A DNA stretch of 34,112 nt from a bacterium. Lineage in GTDB: Bacteria > Babelota > Babeliae > Babelales > Babelaceae. Position 1 is the stretch's first letter. Each line of letters begins with the position of its first letter. Where the stretch lies: NCBI GenBank assembly GCA_021827715.1, contig JAKAUO010000050.1, positions 1-34,112 on the forward strand. Reading direction: 5' to 3'. Made by a program: the position numbers and the translations under genes. Below the pieces are notes generated by a model. That model was not told the origin of the DNA and did no database searches. It worked only from the letters and a program-made list of their open reading frames with translations. Shown here in pieces: positions 1 through 5,317 of this stretch.

Positions 1-1528
1 CGATCTTTGGTCTAAAATTAATGACACCTTTTGTTTCAGGTTTTCGCCAGAATTGTGAACCGGTGATCGGAAAGGCTGCTAACAATTCACCCGATGAAAT
101 GCTATCCTTAACTGATAAAACAGTAGGCGTGCCAATAGGCAATAATAAAGTATCAATGTTGAATCTTTCTTTAAAGAATTGTATATTTTTACGCGCAACA
201 TAAGGGGTATACTCATCATCCAAAATTACGTCTTTAATTTCTCGGCCCTTCATTTCTGGAGATTTGTTAGCATTTTTGATAGCAAGTAAAATTCCGGTTC
301 TGACCCTGTCTCCCATGATAAAATTACTTTTAGAAAGATCCAATGATGACCCTATATAGATTTTTTTTTCAGCAAAATTAAGGTTTTCTTGGGTGGCCGC
401 CATTTCGATGCCAACATTAATTTCAAAGCTTTTGACCATTTTAAAAGTATCCTGAGTAAAGCGATTCCTGGCAAAGAGTTCTATAAAACTTGAAGCGATT
501 TCTGATCCGAAAATAATAACCGCAAAAGCATCATCAGTTACCTTAAAAAAGGAATTAAAAAGTGTTGTTGGTGCGGAAAAAATGCGCCACACCGTTGCCG
601 CACCAACTGGCTCTAAAAGCATGAGCGGCTTGATGTTCTGCATTTTTATTGTAGGGTCAAAGTTTTGAATAAGTATAGTGGTATAAGCAAATTTGCCGGG
701 TTCATTCTTTTTCAAATTCCACATTGATACGGTATTATTTTTTAAGGTATAAAAAAAATCATCTACCTTGTTTTCATGGGTATCATAATTAAATTTTTGT
801 AAGGCGGTAATTTTTAAGAGATTATGAGGGTCTTCTTTATAATTCACATAGAATGCAGAGGGCAATATAGTAATAAATCTTTTTAAAAGCGCTATAACTT
901 TATTTTTAGATTTGCGATAAATGATATCAAGCTGTTGTATTAATTCACCGTCCAGCCAGAGCTCATCTTGGTCATAATCGCTTTTTAAATAAAATACTTT
1001 ATCAGGGTTTTGTTCCATTAAAAGAAGTATCACAAAGAGTGTTTGCAATCCATAAGCAGAACGGGCGATAACACTACCATTAAATAGTATATAATAGTGC
1101 GGATCGATAATTTTTAATGATTCATCAATAATGCCCTGTTTTTTTAATTCTTGAAGGTCCCTTATTAATGAATGAAATGCCCCTTGAATGGACCCAAAAA
1201 TAACCATTTTATCATTCTTTTTAACTTGGGTTGCCAGAATGAAGCTTCCCGTGTGATTGCGTTTTTTTTGTTGTAAGGTTACTTTCTCCAGTAATTCTAT
1301 AAAGTATGTTAGAGGAAAGTGTTTCTGTGATTTAAAAAAGAAATCAGCTATGCTTGAGCGCGATTGTTTAAAAAAACTTGAAAAATCTAAATTATCAAAA
1401 TTGTTATTATCTGGCTTAGCGTCTTCAGGATACGTTTTAGATAATGTTTGCAGGCCAAGCAGGGTAAATTTTTCAGCAGCGAGTGTGCCTATTAAAAAAA
1501 GAGCGAAAAGATATCGTTTTAGTATCAT
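1..1528 (-). CDS. Exported fusion: degenerate calcineurin-like phosphoesterase + LivJ-like periplasmic binding domain (C-terminus beyond window)
   Basis: Reading the minus strand from the ATG at 1528, one frame stays open for about 509 codons and runs off the left edge, so the gene is partial. Residues 1-18 are a signal peptide (MILKRYLFALFLIGTLAA). Residues ~108-190 follow the layout of Ser/Thr-phosphatase-type metallophosphoesterases, but the metal ligands are replaced: GSIQG for GDxHG (~112-116), NGSVIARS for GDxVDRG (~150-157) and KSDYD for GNHE (~182-186). From ~390 the sequence resembles type I periplasmic binding proteins of the Leu/Ile/Val family: YIGSSLDLS, GDRVRTGILLAIKNAN, then GREIKDVILDDEYTPYVA and LLLPIGTPT. 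It starts 8 nt after the stop of the channel gene behind AGGGA, so the two are probably co-translated. The phosphatase part is presumably catalytically dead and kept as a fold; the receptor part should bind a small ligand in the periplasm. The domain calls come from motif reading only. Confidence 0.75.
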   Translation of the reverse strand, partial: MILKRYLFALFLIGTLAAEKFTLLGLQTLSKTYPEDAKPDNNNFDNLDFSSFFKQSRSSIADFFFKSQKHFPLTYFIELLEKVTLQQKKRNHTGSFILATQVKKNDKMVIFGSIQGAFHSLIRDLQELKKQGIIDESLKIIDPHYYILFNGSVIARSAYGLQTLFVILLLMEQNPDKVFYLKSDYDQDELWLDGELIQQLDIIYRKSKNKVIALLKRFITILPSAFYVNYKEDPHNLLKITALQKFNYDTHENKVDDFFYTLKNNTVSMWNLKKNEPGKFAYTTILIQNFDPTIKMQNIKPLMLLEPVGAATVWRIFSAPTTLFNSFFKVTDDAFAVIIFGSEIASSFIELFARNRFTQDTFKMVKSFEINVGIEMAATQENLNFAEKKIYIGSSLDLSKSNFIMGDRVRTGILLAIKNANKSPEMKGREIKDVILDDEYTPYVARKNIQFFKERFNIDTLLLPIGTPTVLSVKDSISSGELLAAFPITGSQFWRKPETKGVINFRPKI

Positions 1529-1536
1529 TTTTTTCC

Positions 1537-2631
1537 CTAGAAGAAATGAGTCCCATGGTAAGTGAAGCTTAAGATATACGAAACAATAATGATAAAAGAG
1601 CTAATAAGGAGGCCGTGTACCAGAAGTATTAATGTTTTTTTAGCCTTCATGGATACATTCATTGAAAATATCCCTATTAAAAACAATAAAGCAGCCAGGA
1701 CCAAAAAAATCAGAAAGAAATAATCTGATATCATAAAGTAACCAACTTCTGGCGACATATTTTCAATAACAAATCTAAAAGCAATAAGCCCTGATAAGCT
1801 TGCGCCATTGGCAACCATAATCGAAGAAAAATATTTATAAGGGTCGTAAGAAAAAGAAGTAAGCATAACAATAATAAAGACTACCATGGGCATTAAGAGA
1901 ATTAATGCATATTTTAATCCTGAGCGGCGATAGAGTATAGAAAATTGAACAGCAGGGTGGTAGATATTATATGATTCATTACGTGTATCGATAACTTCTT
2001 CTACATATCCGGTAAGAACTTCTTTGAGTTTTTCAATCCAGCCGAATGATTCTGTTTTTGGCCTGACAATAAATGATTGATTATGTATTTCATACATTAA
2101 TTCTTGTGGCGTAACTTTTTTATTTACAAGAATAAGCTTGATTATATGGTCATCAACAGGAAAGAGTTTATAATTTAATTCTGTTTTAAATCTGACAAGT
2201 ATATCGTAAAACACAAGGAGCCGATTTTTATTCAAGCGACTTCTGGGTGATGATTTATGGATGATATCACCTTTTTCAAATTCAAATTCTGATACGGTAT
2301 CAATGGAAATGGTAGATGGGTCAAATTCAAACCAGATGGTGCCCTCAAATTCATACGTAGCATTTAACATATCAAAGATTCGGTAATTATAAATAGAAAG
2401 GCCCGTTTTTATGGGAATCGGCGCATTATTGGTATTGATCATAGAAGGAATCAATGATTTTATTGAAAATTCTTCTTCGACAGGTGTGGGTTGTTCCACG
2501 GTTATTTTAATTGACAATAACGCTATAGCGCAGGTAATTGATATGGTTATAATATGAAAAAGAAGGCTTATTGGCTTATGCTTTGGGCTTACGTCAGCAA
2601 TAGAAGGGGAAGGTGATTTTTTTTCTTCCAT
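1537..2631 (-). CDS. Pentameric ligand-gated ion channel (Cys-loop/Pro-loop) homologue
   Basis: This 364-residue membrane protein has the pLGIC layout. An N-terminal hydrophobic anchor (~21-43) is followed by a beta-rich extracellular domain (~65-235) containing the Pro-loop signature FPVD at 157-160, without flanking cysteines as in prokaryotic members. Four membrane segments follow: M1 ~239-258 with its conserved proline (LLMPMV), M2 ~266-289, M3 ~301-324 and M4 ~333-355. The M2-M3 stretch IAFRFVIENMSPEVGY matches the pattern of the Gloeobacter channel GLIC (IAFNILVETNLPKTPY) closely. Family knowledge: these form homopentameric cation or anion channels gated by protons or small ligands. The start is supported by AAGGA upstream, embedded in a 12-nt palindrome (2639-2650). 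The next gene downstream encodes a periplasmic-binding-like protein, suggesting a shared sensory role. The N-terminal anchor before the ligand domain is unusual. The ligand is unknown. Confidence 0.8.
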   Translation of the reverse strand: MEEKKSPSPSIADVSPKHKPISLLFHIITISITCAIALLSIKITVEQPTPVEEEFSIKSLIPSMINTNNAPIPIKTGLSIYNYRIFDMLNATYEFEGTIWFEFDPSTISIDTVSEFEFEKGDIIHKSSPRSRLNKNRLLVFYDILVRFKTELNYKLFPVDDHIIKLILVNKKVTPQELMYEIHNQSFIVRPKTESFGWIEKLKEVLTGYVEEVIDTRNESYNIYHPAVQFSILYRRSGLKYALILLMPMVVFIIVMLTSFSYDPYKYFSSIMVANGASLSGLIAFRFVIENMSPEVGYFMISDYFFLIFLVLAALLFLIGIFSMNVSMKAKKTLILLVHGLLISSFIIIVSYILSFTYHGTHFF

Positions 2632-2705: not shown

Positions 2706-3071
2706 CTATATCGTTTCTAGTATTAATTTTTGTTTTTTAATATCGCCAGTGTAGCGTATTTTTATTGTTGTATGACAAACAGAACTCAAGCTTGCCGTTT
2801 GTGCCGTTGTTAATGCTTTTACTACAATAGTATCAAGACAATCATCATTGTTTGTAGCCATTTTCTGCTTGCCTAATGCAGGAAGGGTAAACGAGCCCCC
2901 TTTTCCGGTAAGAGTATTTTTAATGCCGCCGCCACTTTGCCACGAAACTTCCATAATTTCTTGAGTGGTATTAATAACAGTGTAATAGGTAAATTGATTC
3001 CATAATATCTTTTTCGAATAGTGAGTGTTAAAAAAAAGAAGCAAAGCGAGCGCGTAATATATTTTTTTCAT
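2706..3071 (-). CDS. Small secreted protein, tandem paralog A
   Basis: A 121-residue protein with a signal peptide (MKKIYYALALLLFFNTHYS). No known family was recognised. The mature part looks like a small beta-rich domain with an N-T pair, WQSGGG, an NDDC motif and a second cysteine, suggesting one disulfide. The same landmarks recur in the gene just upstream on the strand (NDT, WKSNG, HDNC, then C), so the two are diverged tandem duplicates. Its ATG overlaps the stop of that neighbour by 4 nt (ATGA) and is preceded by AGGAGAG, so translation is probably coupled. The channel gene starts 74 nt downstream. Confidence 0.7.
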   Translation of the reverse strand: MKKIYYALALLLFFNTHYSKKILWNQFTYYTVINTTQEIMEVSWQSGGGIKNTLTGKGGSFTLPALGKQKMATNNDDCLDTIVVKALTTAQTASLSSVCHTTIKIRYTGDIKKQKLILETI

Positions 3072-3436
3072 AAACTCTCCTGAGGTGCTTCTAGTTTTTC
3101 AAAAGTGATTTTTAATCTTTTATCTAAAGAAATGGTAATAGTAGACGCATCACAAAAAGGCTTTGAGCGAATTTTATATTTTCTTTGTGAATTTATGGGA
3201 TCAAATGCCTCAATAAATAAAATATGTACGCAATTATCGTGATGTGTTTCAATGCATCCTGTGCAGTGACCCCCTGGCAGAAGATCAAAGACGCCACTTT
3301 TGCTTTCTGATGCAAGCCCATTACTCTTCCAGGTAATGCGCAATGGTAAATCCGTGTCATTTACTATATTAAAATTTTTTGAATATGCACCTGCCATGAT
3401 ACAGAATAGAATACTCGTATAGATTGCTTTCTTCAT
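3068..3436 (-). CDS. Small secreted protein, tandem paralog B
   Basis: A 122-residue protein with a signal peptide (MKKAIYTSILFCIMAGAYS). The frame is open 8 codons further upstream, to 3460, but the ATG at 3436 is chosen because AAGGGGGG lies 3-4 nt before it and the signal peptide begins there. The mature protein has a beta-strand pattern and four or five cysteines (CTGC, HDNC, a later C). It shares the W-K/Q-S-N/G, D-x-C and C landmarks with the 121-residue product that follows it, so they look like tandem duplicates. The function is not recognised. It begins 46 nt after the racemase stop, so a common transcript is likely. Confidence 0.7.
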   Translation of the reverse strand: MKKAIYTSILFCIMAGAYSKNFNIVNDTDLPLRITWKSNGLASESKSGVFDLLPGGHCTGCIETHHDNCVHILFIEAFDPINSQRKYKIRSKPFCDASTITISLDKRLKITFEKLEAPQESL

Positions 3437-3482
3437 GATCCCCCCTTTTGAACCAGTCATGCTCAGTATCGCATATAGTATT

Positions 3483-4277
3483 TCAATTTGTCGATACTTT
3501 AAATGATCTTTTTACCAGTTCATTGGCAAGAATTTCCAAAGTGTCCAGTACATGGATCTTTTTTGTTTGATCACAAAGAACTTCTAAGGAATGCGCCTCG
3601 TGTAATAAGGGTAATTCTGTGCAGCCTAAAATAACTCCATCAATGTCATGGGATTTGGCGTAAGAGGCAATAATTTCTCTTAACTGCTGCGCATCGGATA
3701 ACAAAGTATTACCTTCAAGAATATTGTTGATAATGTTGTTAATAGTAACCTGATCGGCAAAGCTTGGTATGATACTTTCAATTGACGAATATGAATAGAG
3801 GTTAAGTCCCAAAGTTGTTTGAGTTCCTAGAATTAAAAGCTTTTTCAGTTTGTTTTCTTTGGCAAAAGCATAGGTATTTTCAGCAATATGTGCAAAACGT
3901 AAAGTAGGCTTGATGCCATCTGGAAGCAAAGTATGGAGTGTATTGCAAGCTATAGCTGAAATTTGTATATTTCCTGAAGAAAACCTATCAAAGCACTGTT
4001 GCAGTTCATTATGGAGCTTTTTCCCATTAATAGTGCGGTCGCTAACAGTTAGCATATCACTAAAGGGATAGCTTATAATAACTATTTCAGGAAAATCTTT
4101 ATCATCTTTGCAGTTATATTTTTTTTGGCATATTTTAATAATTTTTTCATAGAGCTTGCAGCCTGCCATAGGACCGGCCCCACTGACAATGCCAATTTTT
4201 TCGGGTTTAATGGGGCCATGAGCATTACTATTTAAACCCAAGCCAAGTAAGACTATTGTTAATAAAGAACGTATCAT
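3483..4277 (-). CDS. Exported aspartate/glutamate racemase family protein
   Basis: This 264-residue member of the Asp/Glu/hydantoin racemase superfamily interconverts L and D forms of acidic amino acids by a two-base cysteine mechanism. Both catalytic cysteines are present: AIACNT (C111) and LGCTE (C219). The N-terminal IGIVSGAGPMAG is the usual first strand and glycine-rich turn. What is unusual is a signal-peptide-like leader before the domain (MIRSLLTIVLLGLGLNSNAHG). That would place the enzyme in the periplasm, where free amino acids rather than cell-wall precursors would be the substrate. It begins 2 nt after the dehydrogenase stop. The exact substrate (Asp, Glu or a related acid) cannot be told from sequence. 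Confidence 0.85.
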   Translation of the reverse strand: MIRSLLTIVLLGLGLNSNAHGPIKPEKIGIVSGAGPMAGCKLYEKIIKICQKKYNCKDDKDFPEIVIISYPFSDMLTVSDRTINGKKLHNELQQCFDRFSSGNIQISAIACNTLHTLLPDGIKPTLRFAHIAENTYAFAKENKLKKLLILGTQTTLGLNLYSYSSIESIIPSFADQVTINNIINNILEGNTLLSDAQQLREIIASYAKSHDIDGVILGCTELPLLHEAHSLEVLCDQTKKIHVLDTLEILANELVKRSFKVSTN

Positions 4278-4279
4278 TT

Positions 4280-5317
4280 CTATTGCCTGACAATGTTCAT
4301 TGGTTTATTGTTTATAAAATTAATAATATTCTGCGCTGTTATAGAGAGTACCGACTTGGCTGCATCAATTGAATGATAGGCAATATGAGGAGTAACAATA
4401 ACATTTGGCAAACCTATCAACTCATGATTTAATGAGGCTAACTCCCCAGAGGTATCTAATTGATGTTCACATTCTAAAACATCGAGCCCAGCTCCAGCAA
4501 GAGTGCCATTTTTAAGAGCTTCTAGGAGTGGTTTTGTAGCTATAAGCTCGCCCCGAGCAGTATTGATTAATACCGCTTTTTTCTTCATAAGTTCCAGCTT
4601 TTTCTCATCAAGAAGATGATGAGTGTCTTGAGTAAGGGCAGTATGCAGAGTAACTATATCTGACTTTTGCAATAATTCTTGCAGTGGTACATAGGTAACG
4701 CTGTTTTTAGCAGCAAAATCATCATCTGTATTTCGTGAATGGGCAAGAATTTGCATTTGAAAGGCTTGGGCGATTTTAATGACATTTTTGCCTATATTTC
4801 CGGTTCCAATAACCCCAAGCGTTTTTCCTTTTAGATCAAACCCTGGCAGAAGGGTAGCATTAAAGTCTGGTTTTTCAATAAGCGCACGATTATGTTCACG
4901 TATCTTACGGGAAAGATTCAAAATTAACCCGAAGGTAAGTTCTGCAACACTTTGGGACGCATAATTTGGTACGTTTGCAACTGCAATATTTTTTCCGCGG
5001 GCATGCGTATGATCAATATGATCATAGCCCGTTGATCGCGCAGCGATCAATCTAAGGTTTGGTAATTTATCAATTATCCCTGAGGGAACCAGAGAAAAAG
5101 AAACTGAAATGACCTCAGCTGATTCATAGCGCGAAACATTTGAATCATTTAACTTTTCAGAGCTAAAGGTTAATGTTGTGCCAGTTTCTTTAAAATAGCC
5201 TCTAAAAGTATCAACCTCTTCTTGATTTGTTTCAAAAAAAACTATTTTCCCGCTTTCTTGAGCAGAAAGTGATGCTATTGATAATACATTTACGAGCAAT
5301 TGCTTTTTAGCGTTCAT
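4280..5317 (-). CDS. D-isomer-specific 2-hydroxyacid dehydrogenase with export-like leader
   Basis: A 345-residue member of the D-2-hydroxyacid dehydrogenase family, which uses NAD(H) to interconvert 2-keto acids and D-2-hydroxy acids such as D-lactate. The Rossmann motif GTGNIG is at 171-176. The catalytic arginine is R255 (NTARGE), the glutamate probably E284 in LDVLECEH, and the histidine H311 (TPHIAYHS). The fold normally starts at the first strand, here GKIVFFE at ~23; the 22 residues before it (MNAKKQLLVNVLSIASLSAQ) look like a signal peptide. An exported NAD-dependent enzyme would be odd, so the leader could instead be a cytosolic extension, but no other start codon is available near the domain. 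It is the first gene of the minus-strand cluster and diverges from the gene at 5478. Confidence 0.85.
   Translation of the reverse strand: MNAKKQLLVNVLSIASLSAQESGKIVFFETNQEEVDTFRGYFKETGTTLTFSSEKLNDSNVSRYESAEVISVSFSLVPSGIIDKLPNLRLIAARSTGYDHIDHTHARGKNIAVANVPNYASQSVAELTFGLILNLSRKIREHNRALIEKPDFNATLLPGFDLKGKTLGVIGTGNIGKNVIKIAQAFQMQILAHSRNTDDDFAAKNSVTYVPLQELLQKSDIVTLHTALTQDTHHLLDEKKLELMKKKAVLINTARGELIATKPLLEALKNGTLAGAGLDVLECEHQLDTSGELASLNHELIGLPNVIVTPHIAYHSIDAAKSVLSITAQNIINFINNKPMNIVRQ

Follow-up and report, generated by a model that had tools for sequence, protein, structure and literature searches.

What could be the role of a protein that joins a phosphatase-like domain with altered metal-binding motifs to a type I periplasmic binding protein (PBP) domain? 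The question is raised by a gene at one end of the window, i. e. the whole stretch of DNA analysed here, which comprises the 34,112 nucleotides of contig C11 (JAKAUO010000050.1) in the Babelaceae assembly GCA_021827715.1, a genome of about 1.0 Mb in 54 contigs that is 94% complete. Among named relatives, the one nearest to this fusion gene comes from a metagenome-assembled genome of Candidatus Babeliaceae (lineage Candidatus Babelota). The phylum Babelota is also called Dependentiae or TM6, and its described isolates parasitise protists (PMC6561590, PMC4378268).

The answer that we favour, with moderate confidence, is a three-part chemo-electrical receptor of the periplasm, in which the PBP binds a ligand, a catalytically dead phosphatase serves as the adaptor and a pentameric ligand-gated ion channel (pLGIC) gates ions. 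This probable function of the fusion protein is derived from the channel gene directly upstream and from the three-part cassette found throughout the phylum. An initial annotation, made from the sequence alone, had proposed an exported enzyme repurposed as a binding or scaffold module. As far as it went this reading holds, profile and alignment evidence being consistent with it and the scaffold role being a deduction, but it was incomplete, as it missed both the channel and the cassette.

The phosphatase-like domain and its lost metal ligands

The fusion gene has the following features.

2-1528, minus strand: pseudo-phosphatase-PBP fusion gene encoding P0001 (open reading frame and overlap with contig C37; truncated by the contig end)
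1475-1528, minus strand: putative Sec signal peptide (MILKRYLFALFLIGTLAA), from sequence inspection; the paralogues also have a hydrophobic N-terminus
419-1465, minus strand: degenerate PPP/calcineurin-like phosphoesterase domain (alignment and profile matches)
1181-1195, minus strand: motif 1, GSIQG for GDxHG (D to S, H to Q), residues 112-116
1058-1081, minus strand: motif 2, NGSVIARS for xGDxxDRG (D to S, second D to A, R kept), residues 150-157
971-985, minus strand: motif 3, KSDYD for RGNHE (N to D, H to Y), residues 182-186
800-814, minus strand: motif 4, KITAL, where less eroded relatives show ISH (H to A)
566-580, minus strand: FSAPT, in a region that holds a W and an S invariant in 89 homologues
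8-361, minus strand: N-terminal part of the type I periplasmic binding domain (Peripla_BP_6; profile matches)

The signal-peptide-like N-terminus suggests that the protein is exported. The FSAPT segment appears to resemble the C-terminal SAPNY loop of PPP phosphatases.

P0001 alone has no match to the Pfam Metallophos family. A paralogue with intact motifs, for which the initial annotation had advised searching, is present in the genome: P0005 aligns with P0001 in BLASTP at 4e-10 (25% identity over 163 residues) and by profile comparison at an E-value of 7.7e-9. Its motifs GDLHG(D), GDLVDRG and RGNHE align in place with GSIQG(A), NGSVIARS and KSDYD of P0001, which bears out the earlier claim that these are altered metal-binding motifs. 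PF00149 is matched individually by 55 of 89 homologous domains (best 7e-13), and a profile of these domains matches PP2A in the PDB at 9e-11. Thus the assignment to the PPP fold is well beyond chance, and the metallophosphoesterase similarity on which the initial annotation depended is found in profile searches. A chance origin of the motif resemblance is excluded by the homologues that retain the motifs.

P0005 (locus L009, G000:C4, 22-1328) is the only PPP-type paralogue of the genome with intact motifs 1-4. It ends after motif 4, where it abuts an IS630-like transposase reading frame on the opposite strand; it was probably cut by insertion and its activity is therefore doubtful. By inspection, the other PF00149 proteins of the genome are SbcD-like, YmdB-like and purple-acid-phosphatase-like.

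Six ligand positions were scored in the 89 domains (D and H of motif 1, D of motif 2, N and H of motif 3, H of motif 4); motif 5 was left out because its alignment is uncertain. The full set is kept by none of the domains, five ligands are kept by 17 and no ligand by 19. The window copy belongs to the last class, and all three copies of this genome have lost every scored ligand. Two sampled relatives from the same genus are eroded at the same motifs. Parsimony on a tree gives at least 9-18 changes per scored position, counts that are blind to gain versus loss and approximate because many nodes of the quickly built tree are weak. The reading frames are open and dN/dS is 0.09-0.28 (about 0.2), a rough estimate because dS is saturated; this suggests constraint on both halves of the fusion. 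A decaying pseudogene is ruled out by the open frames, the dN/dS of about 0.2 and the conservation throughout the phylum.

One could still argue that the domain works with a metal, either as an enzyme or as a sensor (for instance of Ca2+, to which the channel DeCLIC responds), the fully eroded copies being specialised branches. Many of the domains with five ligands indeed keep D, D, N, H and H and have only the motif-1 H replaced by Q. However, no domain in the family has the complete set, the ligands changed repeatedly along the tree, and both this genome and the sampled relatives of its genus show the erosion described above. We regard this explanation as unlikely, albeit the strongest of the alternatives.

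The binding domain and the join to a second contig

The fusion reading frame (2-1528, minus strand) has 509 open codons and runs past the contig end. The missing rest of the gene, which the initial annotation had placed beyond the left edge, was located on contig C37 via an identical overlap of 126 bp (C11:7-132 and C37:17020-17145), where it continues from 17143 down to about 16322 (P0004). This piece of 273 codons, which partly overlaps the window piece, completes the PBP domain. The overlap together with the homology argues for a join of C11 and C37, which would result in a tandem array of channel, fusion, channel, fusion, channel. Bases 1-6 of the window, CGATCT, differ from the C37 sequence and are presumably an Illumina adapter remnant; hence the last two residues of P0001, KI, are probably not real.

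Two full-length paralogues share the layout and the ligand loss of P0001; one is encoded on C37 (745 aa), the other on C12 (746 residues as translated). The initial annotation had seen a LivJ-like domain following the phosphoesterase, and the paralogues confirm it. The match of the truncated window piece to Peripla_BP_6 (8e-5) is below the curated cut-off of the family, whereas that of the full-length paralogue P0002 (1.6e-31 over positions 1-335 of 343) is above it; the C37 remainder of the window gene matches at 1.9e-19. The nearest PBP structures are annotated as leucine/isoleucine/valine-binding (LivJ-type; 4kv7 and 3lop; 2e-23, near full length), and for this reason an amino acid, plausibly a hydrophobic one, is a lead for the ligand rather than a result.

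A divergent relative of pentameric channels is encoded directly upstream

The gene next to the fusion gene has three features of interest.

1537-2631, minus strand: divergent pLGIC subunit of the Cys-loop/Pro-loop type, separated from the fusion gene by 8 bp
2146-2163, minus strand: Pro-loop FPVDDH in the channel extracellular domain (family alignment, profile match)
1543-1917, minus strand: predicted four-helix transmembrane region M1-M4 (profile; helix limits from a low-confidence model)

The window protein has no Pfam match, its match to NCBIfam LGIC_1 (1.7e-5) is below the curated cut-off, and its best single-sequence match in the PDB is DeCLIC at 3e-5. A profile of 73 channel sequences matches GLIC at 4e-15, in an alignment that spans the Pro-loop to the transmembrane region. 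The Pro-loop proline and the M1 proline are invariant in these 73 sequences, and the Pro-loop, the M1 proline and the M2-M3 region rank among the best conserved parts of the channel. In a Foldseek search all 50 matches listed were pLGICs, with low TM-scores; the channel model used (pLDDT 49) is of low confidence and lends weak support only, and the number of transmembrane helices rests on it. Homology of the 1537-2631 protein to pLGICs, the family to which the neurotransmitter-gated channels of humans belong, is strongly supported by the sequence comparisons, the protein being a divergent relative.

Its divergence is such that only 2 of the 73 homologues match Neur_chan_memb. This, together with the PBP arrays of up to five domains per protein described below, which resemble display modules, would fit a non-conducting membrane anchor or receptor in an adhesion or host-interaction module. 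Against this stand the conservation of precisely the Pro-loop, the M1 proline and the M2-M3 region and the GLIC match, which extends through the transmembrane part. We consider such an anchor quite improbable.

Some channels of the phylum have additional N-terminal parts. Those of loci L128, L129 and L130, paired with a PBP without phosphatase domain, have very long basic and hydrophobic extensions of up to about 1180 aa; those of L087, L089 and L091 have about 220 extra residues resembling several transmembrane helices, and two of them are without a Pfam match.

Conservation of the cassette across the phylum

A three-sequence alignment of the fusion was searched against 101 Babelota/Dependentiae genomes, and the loci around strong fusion matches and other channel matches were fetched and their domains mapped. 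The survey consisted of these genomes, one scan of close relatives and one plasmid search, in which tblastn of the family domain gave no matches; a restriction to the phylum is thereby not proved. Matches to the fusion family were found in 72 of the 101 genomes and were strong (E<1e-30) in 54, as counted by eye from the match table. The channel is present in all 54 genomes with strong matches versus 9 of the 47 others (Fisher p 1.5e-19, which is only indicative because the genomes are related).

At the level of loci, a channel gene in the same orientation accompanies 65 of the 70 clusters that hold a pseudo-phosphatase or a PBP. Of the five clusters without one, L126 was resolved by further sequence, L055 and L106 are at contig ends, and L111 and L113 remain. 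The junctions from channel to pseudo-phosphatase mostly overlap or abut. Three layouts occur: PBP, channel and phosphatase as separate genes (17 loci, six of which touch a contig end); a channel followed by a fusion; and a channel followed by fusions with 2-5 PBPs, the longest open frame having 2,386 aa (L112). Parts that are separate in some genomes and fused in others are the pattern expected of interacting proteins. An operon-like linkage of channel, pseudo-phosphatase and PBP is thus strongly supported.

At L112 and L126 (G093:C5) two adjacent open reading frames of 2324 and 2386 aa each encode one dead phosphatase and five PBPs. Five is also the number of subunits in the type of channel encoded nearby, which may be a coincidence.

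Extra partners beside the cassettes recur only as local synteny, and no permease, ATPase or transporter gene is among them. PF02653, the LivH/M-type permease family and the only permease family tested, has no member in this genome and is found in 18 of the 54 cassette genomes and in 36 of all 101; since it is absent here and from most cassette genomes, a transport role of the PBP is unlikely. Least probable of all is an ordinary solute-binding protein of an ABC amino-acid transporter with a phosphatase remnant and a channel that are incidental: LivJ-type substrate-binding proteins are the nearest relatives of its PBP domain, and the permease does occur in the phylum, but it is the channel, and neither permease nor ATPase, that recurs beside the cassettes.

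The surroundings of the cassettes hold further genes. In the window, two small exported-looking proteins are encoded upstream of the channel:

2706-3460, minus strand: two small exported-looking proteins; in two congeneric genomes homologues are likewise encoded next to the cassette, of which they are uncertain members

Further upstream on the same strand, 3483-5317 holds genes named by inspection as Asp/Glu-racemase-like (with a signal peptide) and 2-hydroxyacid-dehydrogenase-like; no homologues of them were found beside other cassettes. In one genome group with separate genes (L077, L079-L085), a large exported-looking protein is encoded within 4 kb on the same strand at 8 of 8 loci.

Proposed mechanism

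In the receptor that we propose, the PBP domain would bind some small solute, for which a hydrophobic amino acid is a plausible candidate. The PPP-type domain, which would have lost its metal centre and retained its surface, would serve as an adaptor between the PBP and the upstream-encoded pLGIC, docking the former onto the extracellular domain of the latter. The passage of ions through the inner membrane would then be controlled by the binding of ligand. The contact between PBP, adaptor and channel, the direction of signalling, the conduction of ions and the identity of the ligand are all inferred.

Several points weigh against this proposal. Two fusion genes of genome G093, L111 and L113, lie without a channel in their vicinity. 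Six loci have a PBP and a channel with the phosphatase domain absent, and eight have a channel alone, so the adaptor is not always needed; the former six suggest that the core consists of PBP and channel and that the phosphatase domain was added to it. Because 17 of the 89 relatives keep five ligands, residual metal binding or activity is possible outside this genome. The selection estimate is, as stated, rough. An AlphaFold2 model of the fusion from a two-sequence alignment (mean pLDDT 31) was unusable.

Relation to known systems and significance

The association of PBPs with pLGICs is already known: bacterial pLGICs fused to PBP-I or in operons with PBP-II have been reported and a role in chemoreception proposed (Tasneem et al. 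2004, PMC549065). Common to both is a pLGIC core whose sensory module is a PBP, encoded either as a fusion or within one operon. In those systems, however, PBP-I is part of the channel polypeptide and the partners in operons are stand-alone PBP-II proteins, whereas in the Babelota cassette PBP-I belongs to a distinct exported protein, either fused to a dead PPP domain or encoded next to one, occurs up to five times per protein and is spread across an intracellular phylum. DeCLIC (6v4a, 9ftg) likewise is a pLGIC with extra N-terminal periplasmic modules that modulate gating, but there the extra domain belongs to the channel chain. The pseudo-phosphatase aligns with the PPP phosphatases PP2A, PP1 and PP5 through motifs 1-3; unlike them, the window copy lacks the metal ligands and the catalytic His, is apparently exported and is fused to a PBP. 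Similarly, the PBP domain is homologous to LivJ-type proteins (4kv7, 3lop) over nearly its full length, yet it is fused to a dead phosphatase and lies beside a channel in a genome without PF02653.

Searches for Dependentiae together with either ligand-gated ion channels or periplasmic binding plus a channel found no paper, with subscription literature largely outside the search, and term searches of two isolate genome papers found no such ion channel and no phosphoesterase. Neither the component derived from a phosphatase nor the arrays of PBPs nor the expansion across the phylum appears to have been described. If the proposal is correct, the cassette would provide a soluble multi-PBP co-receptor for a Cys-loop-type channel, the first that is known to us from a limited literature search.

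To our knowledge, little is known about which ligands prokaryotic pLGICs bind in nature and what roles they play, and gene linkage here names probable partners for a large family of these channels. In addition, the pseudo-phosphatase seems to be a clear example of how an enzyme fold repeatedly lost its active site under constraint, probably to act as a protein-protein adaptor. More tentatively, and with somewhat less confidence than in the receptor itself, Dependentiae may possess a family of multi-component receptors in which exported pseudo-phosphatases equip pentameric channels with one to five ligand-binding domains and metabolites of the host are thereby read electrically; a phosphatase fold would then have turned into a channel co-receptor. 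The cassette offers a receptor accessible to testing in a phylum whose members parasitise protists, and it suggests an uncharacterised route by which these parasites could sense small molecules.
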